The notes beneath the pieces were generated by a model, which was not told the DNA's origin, searched no databases, and saw only the letters and a list, made by a program, of their open reading frames with translations. A stretch of 64,000 nucleotides of DNA. It comes from Brachyspira innocens ATCC 29796 (GTDB lineage: Bacteria > Spirochaetota > Brachyspiria > Brachyspirales > Brachyspiraceae). This document shows positions 54,964-63,656 of the stretch, piece by piece (within the stretch, counting starts at the first letter, position 1; the number at the start of each line of letters is the position of its first letter). A program made the position numbers and the translations under genes. The DNA is taken from positions 1 through 64,000 of the forward strand of contig NZ_ARQI01000130.1 of NCBI RefSeq assembly GCF_000384655.1, read 5' to 3'.

Positions 54964-55494
54964 ATGAAGAAAATAATTATCTTGATATCATTGTTTGTAC
55001 TTTGTTTTAATTTATTAAATGCACAAAATATAACTAAAGATAGTGATTATTCAAAGAATTGGGCTAATTTCATATTTAGAAAAACAATAGACATGAGAGG
55101 TGCTTTATATGAGGGAAGACCTGGAGGTGATTTAGAATTAGTATCTGGAAGATCTCCTCTTTTTTTGATTAAAATGTATAAATTTATGGGAGCAAGATCT
55201 GATACACATGCATATTATACTCATCAGGTTCCTATATCTATGTTTTATGATAATGCACCAGCTTTGGGCGTTAATCTTGTAGAAGGTTATTCTATAGAGG
55301 GCGGCAAAATAATGAGATATTCAAAATATATAAGAAGCTATCAGGGCAAATTGGATTCATGGAAAAAATCTAATTCTGTTTATACTAATGAGAGATGGGT
55401 GGCAAATTCTGATGCTGATTGGGGATCATACCCAGTACCTCAGCCTGAAGATGTGAATTGGGCAGAGGGAGAATATGCAGGAGAATTGTATTAA
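54964..55494 (+). CDS. Exported protein of unknown function, first of a tandem pair
   Basis: A 176-residue protein with a signal peptide (about 1-20, ending at LLNAQ). No known family was recognised. Its C-terminal 75 residues match those of the next gene: EGY-(I/V)E-K-Y-Y-SY-KL-W-K, then WVA, W, P-P and D-NW at the same spacing. It therefore looks like half of a recent tandem duplication in which one copy is secreted and the other membrane-anchored. AGGAG precedes the ATG. The pair is followed by a STAS protein, with no obvious functional link. Confidence 0.75.
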   Translation: MKKIIILISLFVLCFNLLNAQNITKDSDYSKNWANFIFRKTIDMRGALYEGRPGGDLELVSGRSPLFLIKMYKFMGARSDTHAYYTHQVPISMFYDNAPALGVNLVEGYSIEGGKIMRYSKYIRSYQGKLDSWKKSNSVYTNERWVANSDADWGSYPVPQPEDVNWAEGEYAGELY

Positions 55495-55507: not shown

Positions 55508-56020
55508 ATGTTTTTTATTATATTAGTTATATTATTAGTTCTTATAGTTTTATTTTTTATTAATCATAAAAGTGTAATATCTTATGATAATGCTTGGGTT
55601 AGATTAGTTCAGAATAAGACAGTTAAAGATGCTGATAAAAGCTATTTATTTAAAGAAGATGCTCAATTAATTATAGGCGGCAAAAAAAAAATAGATTTTA
55701 TAAAAGCAAAATATGATAATATGGCCGTTTACAGTAATACTGATTATTTAAATAAATTTATGTTAGTTTTTTCTGGATATCCTTCTGTAAAAGTAACTTT
55801 TATGGAAGGATATATTGTTGAAAATAATAAATTATATTATACCTATGCTTATAAATCTTCATATTATACTAAGCTCAATAACTGGATGAAAATTAACGGG
55901 GTTTTTCAGTCTAAAGAAGTATGGGTGGCCAAAAAAAATATAAAGTGGTCTGCATTTCCGTATCCTACTGCCTCTGATATTAATTGGGAAAAAAAGGCTA
56001 TGATAGGCAGTTTATCATAA
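55508..56020 (+). CDS. Membrane-anchored paralogue of the preceding protein
   Basis: A 170-residue protein with an uncleaved N-terminal hydrophobic helix (about 2-19, IILVILLVLIVLFFI) instead of a signal peptide, then a domain related to that of the preceding gene: EGYIVENNKLYYTYAYKSS, KLNNWMKINGVF, VWVAKKN, PYPTASDINW. It starts 13 bp after the preceding stop without a clear Shine-Dalgarno, so it may be translated by coupling. Function unknown. An in-frame alternative start was not seen. Confidence 0.72.
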   Translation: MFFIILVILLVLIVLFFINHKSVISYDNAWVRLVQNKTVKDADKSYLFKEDAQLIIGGKKKIDFIKAKYDNMAVYSNTDYLNKFMLVFSGYPSVKVTFMEGYIVENNKLYYTYAYKSSYYTKLNNWMKINGVFQSKEVWVAKKNIKWSAFPYPTASDINWEKKAMIGSLS

Positions 56021-56219: not shown

Positions 56220-56552
56220 ATGAGTTTAAATATAGATGATAAAGGTAAAGTTAAAGTTGTTAGTTTGGCTGGAAAACTAGATGTTAATTTATCTGTATCT
56301 ATAGAAGCTGAGTTAGAGCAGTTAGTTGAATCTGGAAGCCATTTTCTAATATTAGAGCTATCAGGAATTGAATATTTAAGTTCAAGCGGTATTAGAGTAT
56401 TTATTTCTATAATGAGAAAAATTAAAGATAAAAATGGAAGATTAGTATTAGCCTGTGTACCAGATATTATTAAAAAAATATTAAAAACAGTTGAATTAGA
56501 AGATTTGTTTGAAGTTTATGAGTCAGTAGATGATGCAGTAGCTTCATTCTAA
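56220..56552 (+). CDS. STAS-domain anti-sigma factor antagonist
   Basis: A 110-residue single STAS domain of the SpoIIAA/RsbV type. VVSLAGKLDV, FLILELSGIEYLSSSGIRVF and LVLACVPDIIKKILKTVELE follow the fold. The phosphorylatable serine is S56, just before the Gly in YLSSSGI. Such proteins release a sigma factor or other target by binding a kinase-type anti-sigma factor; no kinase or phosphatase gene lies nearby, so the partner is unknown. It has its own promoter and Shine-Dalgarno (AAGGAG), and is followed by the giant lipoprotein gene with a separate promoter. Confidence 0.9.
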   Translation: MSLNIDDKGKVKVVSLAGKLDVNLSVSIEAELEQLVESGSHFLILELSGIEYLSSSGIRVFISIMRKIKDKNGRLVLACVPDIIKKILKTVELEDLFEVYESVDDAVASF

Positions 56553-56654: not shown

Positions 56655-59600
56655 ATGAAGTTAAAGTATTATATAAAATTAAAATTACTAATATTATTTT
56701 CTTTTATACTATTTGCCTGTGCATCCAGTCAGAAGAATTCTGATTCTGTATTCAGCAGCAGACCTTTTTTAAGAGAATATAAAAGATATTCTCTTACTTC
56801 AGGGGAGGTGAATCCAGCTTTGGATGCTGTAATAGACAGAGAAGGTACTTGGGTATATTATGCAAGAGAAAATGCAGGAAATACAGATATTTTTGCAATA
56901 GATTCATATACTTTAGAAACATTTAGATTAACTAGAAGCCCTGGTATAGATACTTCTGTTTCTGTTGATGATAAATCAAAATATGTAGTATTTTCTTCTA
57001 CAAGAGATGACGCTTTTGGTGATATATATGCTTATAAACTAGTTAATCTTGTTGGTATAAGAACTTCAAAAAATAATTTAGAAAATTTAGAACAAAGTAT
57101 TATAAGACTTACAGATTATAAAGGCTATGATGTTGACCCTGTGATATCTCATAGAGGAAATATGATAGCTTTTGTATCTGATAGAGATGCTGGTATTAAA
57201 AAGCTCTTTACTATGAGAAATAATGGTAAAGATGTAAGAAAACTATCAGATATAGAAGCTAGTTCCCCTGCTTTTTCTTTTGATGACACTAAAATAGCAT
57301 TTATAACTTCAAAAATAGGAGAGCCTTATTCTCAATTAGCTATATATAATTTTACTCCAAGCACTAATGAGCAAACTAATTTAACAATTCTTACTTCTAC
57401 AAAGACATTTAAATTTAATCCCACTTTTTATAATGATGATACTATAATATTTTTTGAAATAGAAAAAGATTCTGATAGAGATGGAAATTTGACATACTAT
57501 GATAAAAGACGTTTGATGTCATATTCGCTTACAACACATCAGTCATATGTATTATCTGAAGATACTCAATTAACAACTTTTAATGTTGCTTATCCTTCTG
57601 CTTTGGTAGGTGCTTATGTTGTTAGTGAAGATGGTACTAGTATAGTAACAATGGGTTCTACGAAAGAGTATTTTATAAAAGATGATAATTCTCAGACTAT
57701 GTATGAGAGTTTTGTTGAACTTCCTTATGATAGAAAAGTTGATGCTATAGACAGATTTTCTGAATATTTTCCATTTGAAGATGATAAGGGAAATGTTGCT
57801 AAAGCATATTTTAATATAATGATATCATCATATACAAATAATAATATAAACGAATATAATAAAGCTAAAAATACTCTTACACAGGAATATTCTGATACAT
57901 TTGTAGGATTTTTGACTTCAAGAATATATACGAATTTTTATACTAATGAAAATATATTTAATTTAGATTTTTATACTAATGATTTTTTTGCAACGAATAA
58001 AAATTTCAAAAATTTAGATATTACTAATTTGCTTGGTTGGGCTGGATACATATCGGCCAATGAAAAATATAAAAATAATAATTCTGATAAAGATACATTA
58101 CTTATACTAGATAACTTAATAAATTTGAATATAAGCAAAGATTTATATATGTTGGCAGCAAAGTTATATGCTCATTCTGTTGAAGATAATGGTTATAAAT
58201 ATCCTGAAGATGAAGATATGTATAATGTTCCTTATAAGAGAAAAGATTTATTATTTTCAGACAGACTAGATATTGCCAAAAATTTTATAAGAGATACAAA
58301 GATATCTTATAACATTATAATAGATAATGCCCACCCTTATGCGCCTTTATCGGCAGCTGCTAGGCTTATATATTTAGACGGACTGATACTTTCAAGAAAT
58401 TATGAAGAAGCTACTAATTTATTTATCCCTTATACTGAAGCGAAAAATGATATAATGCTTGCTTTAGGATATTATGGAAATGCGAAGGTGCTTTTAGCTC
58501 AAAATGATGATGGGGCTTATGCTCTTTTAAAAGAAGCTTTGACTTCTGGAGGTAAAAATTTTGAATCAACTTATGAGGCAGAAGATTGTAAAACTAAATT
58601 AGCAAGTTATTATAAATCATTAGCAGATGATGCTTATAATCAGCAGAGATATGCTGTTGCTTATGATAATTATAATGAAGTGTTAAAGTATTCGCCTAAT
58701 GATACAACTGCTTCAACTAGAGTAATAGAGAGCGGACTTAGAGCTTACAGTACTATAGATTCTCTTGAAAGAACTATTTATGAAAGAGAGAGAACTATTT
58801 TAAGTACAAGATATTCTGATCATGAGGCACATGCCGAACTTGCTAATGCATATTATTATTTGGCTAATAGATATTATGGTATGGCTGTATCAAAACAGTA
58901 CAGTAAAGAACGCTATGTTGTAAGTGATAAAAAGCGTGAAGACGGATTTTATTTGTATTTAAATAAATCTTTTGAGGCAATAGTTGATAAGGCTGTTTCA
59001 TATATTGACTTTGCAATATTTTTATATCCAGATGAAGAGGATTATTATATAAAAAAAGCTGAGATGTTAACATTTGCTCAGGCTTTGAAAATGCAGGTTC
59101 TTCAGGATACTAAAACTTATAAAAGTGTAATAGAGTTAGTACCTGCTTATAAAGATAATACAATTACCAATGATGTATATATGGGCTATAATTTACTTGC
59201 ATTTCAAACTGCTGATTTGGATTCTGAAATTATAGATGCATTGATAATGGCTAAAAGCAAAGTAAAAACAAAACCTAATATTGTTTCTATAATGCTTGCT
59301 AATTCATACTTGATAAATGGAAGATATTCTGATGCTGCCTCTGAATATAAAGAGGCTGAAAGTCTGCTTAATCAGGTAGGAAGTGATAAGAGCAGGGCTT
59401 GGTATCATTTCTTTTATGGTTATTCTCTTTGGATGAATAATGATATAAAAGGTGCATACAGAGAATACGATACTGCACGTAAATTATTTGAAAAACTTGG
59501 TGATAAAGAAAGTATATATAAAATAGTAGGGTATACTTCTGTAGCTGCTATTGAGCAGGAAGATTATGAAAAAGCTATAGAATCATTGCTTGAAAGAGAT

Positions 59601-62600
59601 AAACTTACAGAAAATGATGTTAATAAAAATGAACTTAATCAGCTTTTGCTTGCTGCATGTTATCTAAAATTAGAAGATTATAATAATGCTTTAGCATATT
59701 GTGATAGTGTAAAAGCACAGATTGATAGTTTGGATTCATCAGTTTATACTCCTAACTATGTAAGTATAACATTATACGGAGCTAACATTAATATAGTAAA
59801 TTTGGGTCTTGCATCTTTCGGAGGATATATACCAGGGGAGCCTTTGAATGTTGATAAGCAGCAGATGCTTTACTCTATATATCAAGAACTTTATGAAAAA
59901 ATGGGAAGATATTCTGAGGCTAGAGAGGCTTTATCATCTTATAGAAATTATGTTATGAAAGATAAGCCTAAAGAATCTATACAGCCTCTTATGCTTGCTA
60001 CTTACTTTAATAACGAAGGATATCTTTACTACAGACAAGGAGATCAGTCAAACTCTATAATGTCATTTAAAAGTTCTATAAAGGAATATCAAAAGACATT
60101 AGACCCTAAAACTCTTGAAAATAATCCTAGTCTTCAGTATCAGAATGCTGAAAATGATGCTAAAAACTATTTAAGTTTATCATCTTTATATTTAAGATAT
60201 TTGTCAGAAAATGATTTAACTTCTATAAAAAAAGAATTTTTTATAGAATTATTTAATACTACAAAAACTCTTAAAGTATTATCTACTAATAATTCAGTTA
60301 GTACCAAAGACAGATTATTGTTATATTCTCATATAGCAGCATTCCAATATATAATGGCATTCAAACTTACAGCAGATAACAGCATAGAGTATAAAAGAAC
60401 AAACAATGATGACCCTACTGATATGACTGATTATGATATAAATGTTCAAAGACTTACTATGCTTAAAGATGCTATTGACAGATATAAATATATTCTTTCT
60501 TCTAATTCTAATTTCCCAGTGGATTTAAAAACTGAAATAATTGTAAGATATAATTTGGCTAAGGCCTATGAACTTGCAGGATATATTGAAGAGGCTGCAA
60601 GAGAGTATATGTCAGCATTTTCAAAGGCACAGGCTTCAGCTTTTGCTGTTGAGGAGATTGCTATACTTACTACTTTAATTGATTTTAGTACTAAATATAG
60701 AAACAGATATCCAGATAGTCTTGATTATCCTGTGCAGTATGTATTTAGGATACTTCAGAGAATAAGCGAAAGCGTATTTATGATAACATTTGTTGAAGAT
60801 AATAACTTTATATTAATACAGGCAAGACGTAAAGTTATAGAATTTCTTCAAGATAAATATCCAGATGCCAGTCTTAATATACTTGCTATGTTTGATGCTA
60901 TTGATATGCGAAGAAAGTTTTTGGATAAAAGACTATATACATTAGGAGAAAATAATTATTATCTTAGAGAATATTATAAACTTTATGAGAATGCTCTTTA
61001 TGCTTATCAAAGATATTTAGACGCTGTTGCAACTCCTTATGATAGTAAAACAGAAGCTGCAGCACTTAAAGAAATTGCTAATTATGAAAAAGAAGCTATA
61101 AAAAGATTTTCTAATACTCCAATAGAGCCTATCGTTATATGCGATGTTAAGCCTGCAGATATAGACAAATCTATGCGTAAAGATGAAACTTTAATATGGG
61201 ATACTTTCTTCGGATATAGATTTGTAAGAGAAAATGGAAAAACTTCATTCTATCTGCAAAGTAATGCTATGCCTAAAACTAAAAACTATGTTACTCATAT
61301 AGGTTTTAGACCAATTGTTATAAGCAATAAGAATATATTTGTAAGGGAATTGTATGATTCTACAGAATATATGCTTCCTGCAAAAACTGCTTATATAGAT
61401 ACTAAATTAATCTCATTCTACAGAACTACTAGAAGTGCTGAAAAAGAAATAAACAGCAGTATGAGTATGATGAGTAATACCAACTCTACTAATAGTGCCT
61501 ATAGCTATAATATTAAAGAAACAAATAATTATGAGTACAGAAGAAATACTCTTGCTATGAATGTGGCTTATAATACTGCTGAAACTAATTTATCAGAAAC
61601 AAATTATAATACTACAAATGTACTTTCTACAAATAATACAGCTTCTACAAACAGACGAAGAAGAGGAAACTTTAGATTTATAGAATTAAAAGATATACCT
61701 ACTAATTCGTATGTTCCTTTGATTGTAGATATAACAGGTGCTAGCGGCTCTGATATATCTAATATTATGAGTAAAAATCTTTATATAGTTTACAGTGATA
61801 AAGAAACTTTTGATAAAAACAGAAGAGTATTGAGAAATATTAATAATATAGCATTAGTAGTAGGCAACAGCGGAAGAGATTCTAGGATAATGTTCTATAC
61901 TAATTATTTCAGAAAATTATCAACCAATTCTTTAGAAACTGCGATGAAAGGATATGATAATAATTTATTTACTGTATATGGAAAACCTGATTATAGTATG
62001 ACTTCATTATCAAATGAAGCATATAATTTTAAAACAAGACTTTACACTTCATATGCCAATACTGAAAATCCTAGTATTTCTATGATGTCTAATGTTATTG
62101 CCTATTCTCAAAGCGATGATGAAAAAATGTTTAATTATGCTACTATTGTTGAAGATAGATATGCGGCAAAAGATACTAATACTGCGTACTTATTTTCAGA
62201 AGAAGGATATAAATTCTTTGCCTCTTCATACAGCAATATAAGTGATTCTAATGCTTATAAATTTATTAAGTCAATGCTTCCAGTGTATAGAAGAATGGGA
62301 GAAGACGGAGCGGTAAAAGGTGCGAATAGAGCATTGCATTTTGTATATCTATATACAAACAATAATTACGATTTAGTAGATGAATACTTTACTCCTAGGA
62401 CATTATCAAGATTCTTAAAAGCTAAAGATAATCCTAATGAATCTGTAAGGTATTTAAATTATATAGCAAATAGGGTTAATGGAGATAATAAAGAAAAGAT
62501 TTTGGAAGTTGCTGTACTTTATGATTTGATATATGCTAAAACTCCTATTGATACTGTAACTAATTTCCTTAACAGAATGCAAAACACAAATGAGGTATTA

Positions 62601-63656
62601 ACTGTAGCTAATACAATACTTGATACTTCTGTAACAAATGAAAGCGATATATTCACTACTATGAATTATATATACGGCAATCAGTATGTATTTGAAACAG
62701 AAACAGTATCTTCATTTGCCGATAGATTCTATTCATTATACAAAACTAATTCTGCTTATATATACGGGCTATTAAATAAAATACGTGTTCCAGAAAGCGA
62801 CTTTGATAAAAATATAGCAAATGCTTATGATATATTTTCTAATGAAAGCACTAATACTATGTTTATATTTTATGCTTATGAAAATGATAAATATACCGCT
62901 TATAGTTATGTGGTAGGCGACAGCGAAGTAAAAAAATCAAGCCTTATTGATATGAAAAAACTTAGCGGATATTTGGAAAGTTTTACTAATGCTGCTAAAG
63001 CTAGAGACAGAAGAACGGCTTTGAAATCCATTGAAAGCGGAATGCTCTCATCAGATATTATTAAAGATGCACAGAGAGTTCAGAGAATATATATAACAGG
63101 TTCTTATGCTAATTTATTTACAGTGCCTTTTGCATATTTGAATTCTTTAAGAAGTAATGATGTTGTTAAGATAAGAGAGTTGGAGTATTCACCTCTCTAT
63201 GTACTTAATGTAGGAAAGCCTAAAATTAAATTAAATACTGAAACTAATTTCTATACCTCTTTAGAAACTTCAGCAGTTGAGAAATTTACTAATCCTAATG
63301 GAAATATACCATTAACGCACTATATAGGAATAGATACTAATAGAAATAAACCTTTTGATAAAGAAGATATTTTCCTATCTCCTGCTAGAAATGCTGATAT
63401 ATTTATGTATTTGGCTGCCAGAAATGATACAAAACTTATGTTTACTTATGCTACTAATAGTGCAGGCGACTATTATACTGTAATGAAGTATTTATATGAA
63501 AGATTTGATAATGGTATTATTGATGCTTACAGATTTATAAAGACTAATAGGGTGAGTGTTAATACTATAAATAACAGTGATAGGGATACGCTTTACATTG
63601 CCAATTATGCATTGTTTGATTATATACTTCCGGGTATACCTAAAGGTGATAAATAG
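56655..63656 (+). CDS. Giant lipoprotein: TolB-like, TPR and CHAT-like regions
   Basis: A 2333-residue lipoprotein, by far the largest gene here. The signal peptide ends in LFAC with C22. Residues about 45-330 carry TolB-type PD40 beta-propeller repeats (GTWVYYARENAGNTDIF, YVVFSSTRDDAFGDIYA, IAFVSDRDAGIKKLF). From about 390 to 1480 lies a long run of helical tetratricopeptide-like repeats (AVAYDNYNEVLKYSPND, DAASEYKEAESLLNQ). Residues about 1595-1675 are Asn/Ser/Thr-rich. The last 650 residues contain two stretches like the end of CHAT caspase-fold domains, around 1730-1765 and 2140-2310, but without a recognisable His/Cys pair. It should sit in the periplasm, anchored in a membrane, as a large scaffold. 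Function unknown; the CHAT reading is tentative. Confidence 0.8.
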   Translation: MKLKYYIKLKLLILFSFILFACASSQKNSDSVFSSRPFLREYKRYSLTSGEVNPALDAVIDREGTWVYYARENAGNTDIFAIDSYTLETFRLTRSPGIDTSVSVDDKSKYVVFSSTRDDAFGDIYAYKLVNLVGIRTSKNNLENLEQSIIRLTDYKGYDVDPVISHRGNMIAFVSDRDAGIKKLFTMRNNGKDVRKLSDIEASSPAFSFDDTKIAFITSKIGEPYSQLAIYNFTPSTNEQTNLTILTSTKTFKFNPTFYNDDTIIFFEIEKDSDRDGNLTYYDKRRLMSYSLTTHQSYVLSEDTQLTTFNVAYPSALVGAYVVSEDGTSIVTMGSTKEYFIKDDNSQTMYESFVELPYDRKVDAIDRFSEYFPFEDDKGNVAKAYFNIMISSYTNNNINEYNKAKNTLTQEYSDTFVGFLTSRIYTNFYTNENIFNLDFYTNDFFATNKNFKNLDITNLLGWAGYISANEKYKNNNSDKDTLLILDNLINLNISKDLYMLAAKLYAHSVEDNGYKYPEDEDMYNVPYKRKDLLFSDRLDIAKNFIRDTKISYNIIIDNAHPYAPLSAAARLIYLDGLILSRNYEEATNLFIPYTEAKNDIMLALGYYGNAKVLLAQNDDGAYALLKEALTSGGKNFESTYEAEDCKTKLASYYKSLADDAYNQQRYAVAYDNYNEVLKYSPNDTTASTRVIESGLRAYSTIDSLERTIYERERTILSTRYSDHEAHAELANAYYYLANRYYGMAVSKQYSKERYVVSDKKREDGFYLYLNKSFEAIVDKAVSYIDFAIFLYPDEEDYYIKKAEMLTFAQALKMQVLQDTKTYKSVIELVPAYKDNTITNDVYMGYNLLAFQTADLDSEIIDALIMAKSKVKTKPNIVSIMLANSYLINGRYSDAASEYKEAESLLNQVGSDKSRAWYHFFYGYSLWMNNDIKGAYREYDTARKLFEKLGDKESIYKIVGYTSVAAIEQEDYEKAIESLLERDKLTENDVNKNELNQLLLAACYLKLEDYNNALAYCDSVKAQIDSLDSSVYTPNYVSITLYGANINIVNLGLASFGGYIPGEPLNVDKQQMLYSIYQELYEKMGRYSEAREALSSYRNYVMKDKPKESIQPLMLATYFNNEGYLYYRQGDQSNSIMSFKSSIKEYQKTLDPKTLENNPSLQYQNAENDAKNYLSLSSLYLRYLSENDLTSIKKEFFIELFNTTKTLKVLSTNNSVSTKDRLLLYSHIAAFQYIMAFKLTADNSIEYKRTNNDDPTDMTDYDINVQRLTMLKDAIDRYKYILSSNSNFPVDLKTEIIVRYNLAKAYELAGYIEEAAREYMSAFSKAQASAFAVEEIAILTTLIDFSTKYRNRYPDSLDYPVQYVFRILQRISESVFMITFVEDNNFILIQARRKVIEFLQDKYPDASLNILAMFDAIDMRRKFLDKRLYTLGENNYYLREYYKLYENALYAYQRYLDAVATPYDSKTEAAALKEIANYEKEAIKRFSNTPIEPIVICDVKPADIDKSMRKDETLIWDTFFGYRFVRENGKTSFYLQSNAMPKTKNYVTHIGFRPIVISNKNIFVRELYDSTEYMLPAKTAYIDTKLISFYRTTRSAEKEINSSMSMMSNTNSTNSAYSYNIKETNNYEYRRNTLAMNVAYNTAETNLSETNYNTTNVLSTNNTASTNRRRRGNFRFIELKDIPTNSYVPLIVDITGASGSDISNIMSKNLYIVYSDKETFDKNRRVLRNINNIALVVGNSGRDSRIMFYTNYFRKLSTNSLETAMKGYDNNLFTVYGKPDYSMTSLSNEAYNFKTRLYTSYANTENPSISMMSNVIAYSQSDDEKMFNYATIVEDRYAAKDTNTAYLFSEEGYKFFASSYSNISDSNAYKFIKSMLPVYRRMGEDGAVKGANRALHFVYLYTNNNYDLVDEYFTPRTLSRFLKAKDNPNESVRYLNYIANRVNGDNKEKILEVAVLYDLIYAKTPIDTVTNFLNRMQNTNEVLTVANTILDTSVTNESDIFTTMNYIYGNQYVFETETVSSFADRFYSLYKTNSAYIYGLLNKIRVPESDFDKNIANAYDIFSNESTNTMFIFYAYENDKYTAYSYVVGDSEVKKSSLIDMKKLSGYLESFTNAAKARDRRTALKSIESGMLSSDIIKDAQRVQRIYITGSYANLFTVPFAYLNSLRSNDVVKIRELEYSPLYVLNVGKPKIKLNTETNFYTSLETSAVEKFTNPNGNIPLTHYIGIDTNRNKPFDKEDIFLSPARNADIFMYLAARNDTKLMFTYATNSAGDYYTVMKYLYERFDNGIIDAYRFIKTNRVSVNTINNSDRDTLYIANYALFDYILPGIPKGDK

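Follow-up and report, generated by a model that had tools for sequence, protein, structure and literature searches.

The window analysed here is a 64,000-nucleotide stretch of DNA from Brachyspira innocens ATCC 29796 (contig NZ_ARQI01000130.1). Near its 3' end, a single unbroken ORF on the forward strand (56655..63656, stop codon included) encodes a protein of 2333 amino acids, hereafter called the giant. This uninterrupted frame bears out a preliminary description of the DNA, which had portrayed the product as a lipoprotein joining a TolB-like propeller, TPRs and two CHAT-like ends. The signal sequence ends in a lipobox-like LFAC motif (residues 19-22; 56709..56720) that is conserved across Brachyspira and contains the predicted lipidated residue, Cys22, a column that is 93% conserved among 29 relatives. 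A lipobox-like motif is also present in most spirochaete giants, as judged with a simple pattern rather than a dedicated predictor. On these sequence features, the Brachyspira giant is an exported, lipid-anchored protein with a predicted lipobox, as originally proposed.

The propeller was likewise correctly recognized. A PD40/TolB-like beta-propeller occupies residues ~30-330 (56742..57644), where the PD40 (E = 1.2e-6) and TIGR02800 TolB-propeller (2e-14) models match within residues 90-275 and the family HMM matches at 9e-47. Downstream lies a helical/TPR region (residues ~340-1470; 57672..61064), with a family HMM match of 2e-30 to residues 881-1329. TPRs are strong in the relatives of the giant (TPR_12, E 1e-18 to 1e-24) and helices are predicted in the B. 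innocens protein, but its own best TPR match (TPR_2, 7.6e-5) falls under the Pfam cut-off. AlphaFold2 (AF2) modelling, which began at residue 1280, predicts that residues 1280-1505 and 1780-2064 are entirely helical. The segment collinear with the first CHAT domain (CHAT1) of other spirochaetes, here termed the pseudo-CHAT1 position, covers residues ~1480-1800 (61092..62054) and includes an N/S/T-rich, low-confidence stretch at ~1600-1670. It is followed by a helical, TPR-like linker in the AF2 model (residues ~1801-2040; 62055..62774) and by the cysteine-free pseudo-CHAT2 (residues ~2060-2333; 62832..63653), which was assigned by alignment, family HMM and a shuffle test. All of these features are on the forward strand. 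A PDB sequence search with the Brachyspira giant matched no solved structure, and no phage matches were found.

Distribution of the giant family

The gene was found in all 25 Brachyspira genomes searched, including B. innocens (54-98% identity), and is therefore a core gene of this genus. Named carriers include B. hampsonii, B. alvinipulli, B. catarrhinii and B. pilosicoli. Approximately 100 of 393 Spirochaetota genomes, from many families, carry ORFs of ~2250-2900 amino acids that match a relative used as the query, a one-query search of limited sensitivity that missed Brachyspira genomes known to carry the giant. The family as a whole ranges from 2.2 to 3.1 thousand amino acids, and 14 alignment columns are invariant among 15 diverse members. 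The family HMM matches show clear orthology of the Brachyspira giant to the family over its propeller and TPR parts, and the Brachyspira protein is the local form of a Spirochaetota-wide family. Relatives also occur in two phyla beyond Spirochaetota, one represented by 39 genomes and including locus L099 from a lake-sediment MAG, and the other by 82 genomes.

Several other large or caspase-like ORFs were encountered. An 11,060-amino-acid frame in genome G191 was rejected as a gene since it consists of masked sequence. A 1605-amino-acid propeller-TPR protein that lacks a CHAT match (L098:9899-14713) is encoded directly 3' of a DUF1318 gene and is possibly a shortened giant. In another spirochaete, a 505-amino-acid protein (L025:4133-5650) carries the caspase-like motifs TYSGHG and DACYSGN, followed by what appears to be an outer-membrane-type C-terminus.

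This distribution bears on a possible role for the giant at the cell surface, where the lipoprotein could use its propeller for adhesion or host interaction. A propeller lipoprotein in a gut-dwelling genus invites this view, given that BPP43_05035 of B. pilosicoli is a 463-amino-acid propeller lipoprotein that functions as an adhesin or in host interaction and is reported to be unique to its species (PMC11444514). That protein was rejected as the counterpart of the giant, being different and much shorter. The giant is conserved in distant spirochaetes and in two further phyla, one of them known from a lake-sediment MAG; this conservation, together with the AsmA/DUF1318 linkage described below, makes an adhesin function improbable.

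CHAT domains and their catalytic residues

Giants of other spirochaetes carry two CHAT-like C-terminal domains with helical repeats between them. Pfam CHAT matches were obtained for the spirochaete orthologues L022 (genome G037; 5e-14), L057 (3e-6) and L059 (2e-4). In profile-profile comparisons, spirochaetes other than Brachyspira matched the active CHAT2 found outside the phylum at 99% (2e-18) for CHAT2 and 95% (3e-8) for CHAT1. The two CHAT-like ends that had been proposed are thus upheld for the family, but the B. innocens giant itself has no match to Pfam CHAT (PF12770). A full-length CHAT HMM matches the Brachyspira protein weakly, and profiles built only from Brachyspira did not align significantly with active CHAT in hhalign (0.5% for CHAT2, 0.2% for CHAT1).

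The comparison was more informative with a model of the CHAT2 N-terminal half, for which residues 2067-2166 of the B. innocens giant, at the collinear place, outscore 198 of 200 shuffles; with L023, none of 200 shuffles scored as high. No comparable shuffle support was obtained for CHAT1 in Brachyspira. Structure prediction had been suggested as a check. An AF2 model of residues 1280-2333 (1054 amino acids) is of moderate quality (pLDDT 64), and in the PDB its fold is best matched by chains of the TPR-CHAT protein Csx29 and by separase (E 2e-4 to 1e-3), at a TM of about 0.2 and with helical repeats contributing to the score. A cropped model of CHAT2 was poor (pLDDT 56) and did not match a CHAT fold. 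Because the Brachyspira profiles are non-significant and the fold matches low-scoring, we consider a CHAT origin of the Brachyspira C-terminus likely by collinearity, a grade that falls short of proof for Brachyspira alone.

The proposal that these ends are inactive is well founded. The last 837 residues of the B. innocens giant are free of cysteine (the last Cys being at or before residue 1496), and therefore this protein cannot be a CHAT protease. Similarly, the last 300 residues lack cysteine in 17 of the 18 Brachyspira-type sequences checked, and neither the His nor the Cys catalytic motif is present in any of 22 diverse spirochaete members. The catalytic positions are indeed changed, as had been noted, but not at the site that was indicated. 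The CHAT Cys motif aligns with IFLSPARN in the Brachyspira giant, and TYATNSAG aligns with the SLWxVDD strand, one after the Cys motif, so that in this alignment it is probably the strand that follows that motif.

Relatives with an intact dyad, the search for which had also been recommended, do exist. The L099 protein (2833 amino acids; propeller-TPR-CHAT1-TPR-CHAT2) has a CHAT match of 2e-63 with intact HLSCHG and LSACES motifs. Among four further full-length members read from its phylum, one has a His to Lys change, and all 20 full-length members read from the 82-genome phylum keep both His and Cys. The CHAT2 dyad is consequently intact in 24 of 25 full-length relatives from the two non-spirochaete phyla, and their CHAT2 is, by its motifs, probably an active cysteine protease. 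CHAT1 is degenerate in five aligned members of the L099 phylum, and both phyla have a single Cys motif past residue 1300. In a tree built from the N-terminal 1500 residues, spirochaetes branch separately from the two other phyla (support 0.95); therefore, a single change between the active and inactive states suffices.

The preliminary description had compared the giant with CHAT-TPR proteins of cell death and defence, which raises the possibility of such an effector having moved to the periplasm. The TPR-CHAT layout and the best fold matches, to Csx29 and separase, are compatible with this origin. However, catalytic motifs are missing from all of the diverse spirochaete members, and the giant is a core gene whose envelope-related surroundings are fixed, with no defence genes recognized among the neighbours examined. 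A defence effector is therefore highly improbable, and the comparison does not hold: gene context and phyletic pattern instead favour lipid transport in the envelope (AsmA, DUF1318).

Association with AsmA-like and DUF1318 genes

In spirochaetes, the typical gene order is AsmA-like, DUF1318 lipoprotein and giant, with ORFs that overlap or nearly touch (L021, L094-L097, L121-L123 and others). The AsmA partner matches PF05170 (7e-8 in L021, 2e-11 in L096) and the DUF1318 partner matches PF07027 (4e-13 in L021). By coordinates, 56 genomes have a same-strand DUF1318 gene immediately 5' of the giant, and four more bring the count to at least 60. The association extends to the other phyla. Of 20 loci from the 82-genome phylum, 15 have the complete AsmA-DUF1318-giant arrangement and all 20 have DUF1318 near the giant; in the L099 phylum, DUF1318 adjoins the giant in five of five loci, with a FecR gene downstream as in spirochaetes. 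Separately, the family f6 genomes G053, G116, G178, G219 and G099 each contain two giants and two DUF1318 genes, which suggests duplication of the whole module.

Among the 393 Spirochaetota genomes, 99 have both giant and DUF1318, four the giant alone, five DUF1318 alone and 285 neither, in a sample whose members are not independent, such that shared ancestry inflates any co-occurrence P-value. The four giant-alone genomes are incomplete assemblies or contig ends. Four of the five DUF1318-alone genomes have an ORF of 2610-3069 amino acids directly 3' of DUF1318, and the fifth (G114) is a Brachyspira that was outside the search run with the B. innocens giant. When downstream giant-sized ORFs are counted, the giant is present in 103 of 104 DUF1318 genomes. 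Because kinship inflates P and the giant-negatives rest on one query, the claim that can safely be made is that a giant accompanies DUF1318 in nearly every genome carrying the latter.

In B. innocens, genes for an AsmA-like protein (1101 amino acids) and a DUF1318 lipoprotein are located together on contig C107, away from the giant. The former matches DUF748, which we take to belong to the AsmA clan, at 3e-10, below the cut-off of that model. The latter matches profile A4 at 8e-54 but does not reach the cut-off of its Pfam model. The operon is thus split in Brachyspira with all parts retained. Directly upstream of the giant is a STAS-domain protein gene (56220..56552, forward strand; PF01740, 3.7e-20), which occupies this position in the Brachyspira loci read. 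In G030 a STAS gene stands ahead of the AsmA-DUF1318 pair instead, from which we infer that this gene is probably a remnant of the AsmA-DUF1318-giant cluster. Farther upstream, two adjacent genes (54964-55494 and 55508-56020) encode small, mutually homologous exported or membrane proteins with no meaningful Pfam match, a pair that many Brachyspira loci retain 5' of the giant.

In several spirochaete families, the giant is followed directly by genes for SpoIIE-response regulator proteins and/or FecR, and SpoIIE phosphatases with a response-regulator domain and FecR recur beside it at L063, L067, L093 and L095, hinting at a regulatory link. These neighbours, the FecR genes in the L099 phylum and the 5' STAS gene in Brachyspira could be explained if the giant were an envelope stress sensor that reads the state of the envelope and signals via STAS, SpoIIE-response regulator and FecR, with AsmA/DUF1318 being what is sensed. 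However, SpoIIE and STAS are less constant neighbours than DUF1318, and Pfam searches recognize no cytoplasmic domain in the giant that could relay a signal. We therefore regard sensing as an unlikely role, albeit the most plausible of the alternatives considered.

Proposed role and comparison with known systems

AsmA-family proteins have been proposed to transport phospholipids from the inner to the outer membrane, a plasmid carrying ydbH-ynbE-ydbL suppresses envelope defects, and E. coli YdbH is reported to work with the lipoprotein YnbE (PMC8593681, PMC11784454, PMC12977461). The E. coli ydbH-ynbE-ydbL genes act in outer-membrane lipid homeostasis (PMC8593681, PMC11784454). We hypothesize that the giant is a large periplasmic, lipid-anchored partner or scaffold of an AsmA-type lipid-transfer module in which the spirochaete CHAT domains are dead, a reading that we hold to be somewhat better than even. 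The AsmA-like bridge, the DUF1318 lipoprotein and the giant would form an inner-to-outer-membrane lipid-transfer module, with the propeller and TPR superhelix serving as docking surfaces and the catalytically dead CHAT domains acting as rigid binding or positioning modules. Such a physical complex, its role in lipid transport and the membrane in which the giant would reside are suppositions at this stage. Against the proposal, the giant is apart from AsmA/DUF1318 in Brachyspira, the AsmA partner matches no YdbH-specific Pfam family, and co-regulation of the giant with DUF1318 could serve a different function in the envelope, as the SpoIIE and FecR neighbours might indicate.

In the two other phyla, CHAT2 would probably still cut a periplasmic target of the same system, its presumed substrate. 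More broadly, and with more doubt than confidence, we suggest that AsmA-like, DUF1318 and giant proteins constitute an undescribed envelope machine in at least three phyla, in which a regulated periplasmic CHAT protease controls lipid bridging outside spirochaetes and a scaffold takes its place within them. In a literature search confined to papers accessible without subscription, we found no publication that connects AsmA with CHAT domains and none of relevance on DUF1318. To our knowledge, the phospholipid route to the outer membrane and the regulation of AsmA bridges have been little studied in spirochaetes, and a constant giant partner would offer a testable handle on both. If true, a link between exported CHAT proteases and a lipid-transport operon would take this family past cytoplasmic defence and cell division.

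The giant resembles parts of three known systems. Like TolB of Tol-Pal, it has a PD40 propeller and an export signal, but it scores 53 bits against a cut-off of 343 bits, over the propeller part only, and the TolB amino-terminal domain was not detected in it. As in the TPR-CHAT proteases Csx29 (of Craspase) and separase, TPRs precede CHAT, and an H-C dyad is present in the relatives from two phyla. Unlike these proteases, the giant is exported, has a propeller in front and carries two CHAT domains; no CRISPR partner was seen, and the dyad is absent from spirochaete giants. In gene content there is a parallel with ydbH-ynbE-ydbL, in which YdbL is the DUF1318 protein of E. coli. In both cases an AsmA-family bridge and a DUF1318 protein are encoded together (PMC8593681). 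However, no YnbE was recognized among the ORFs of at least 70 amino acids examined, the DUF1318 protein is itself a lipoprotein of ~200 amino acids, the AsmA partners scanned match no YdbH-specific Pfam family at E<=0.1, and a propeller-TPR-CHAT protein of 2.2-3.1 thousand amino acids has been added.
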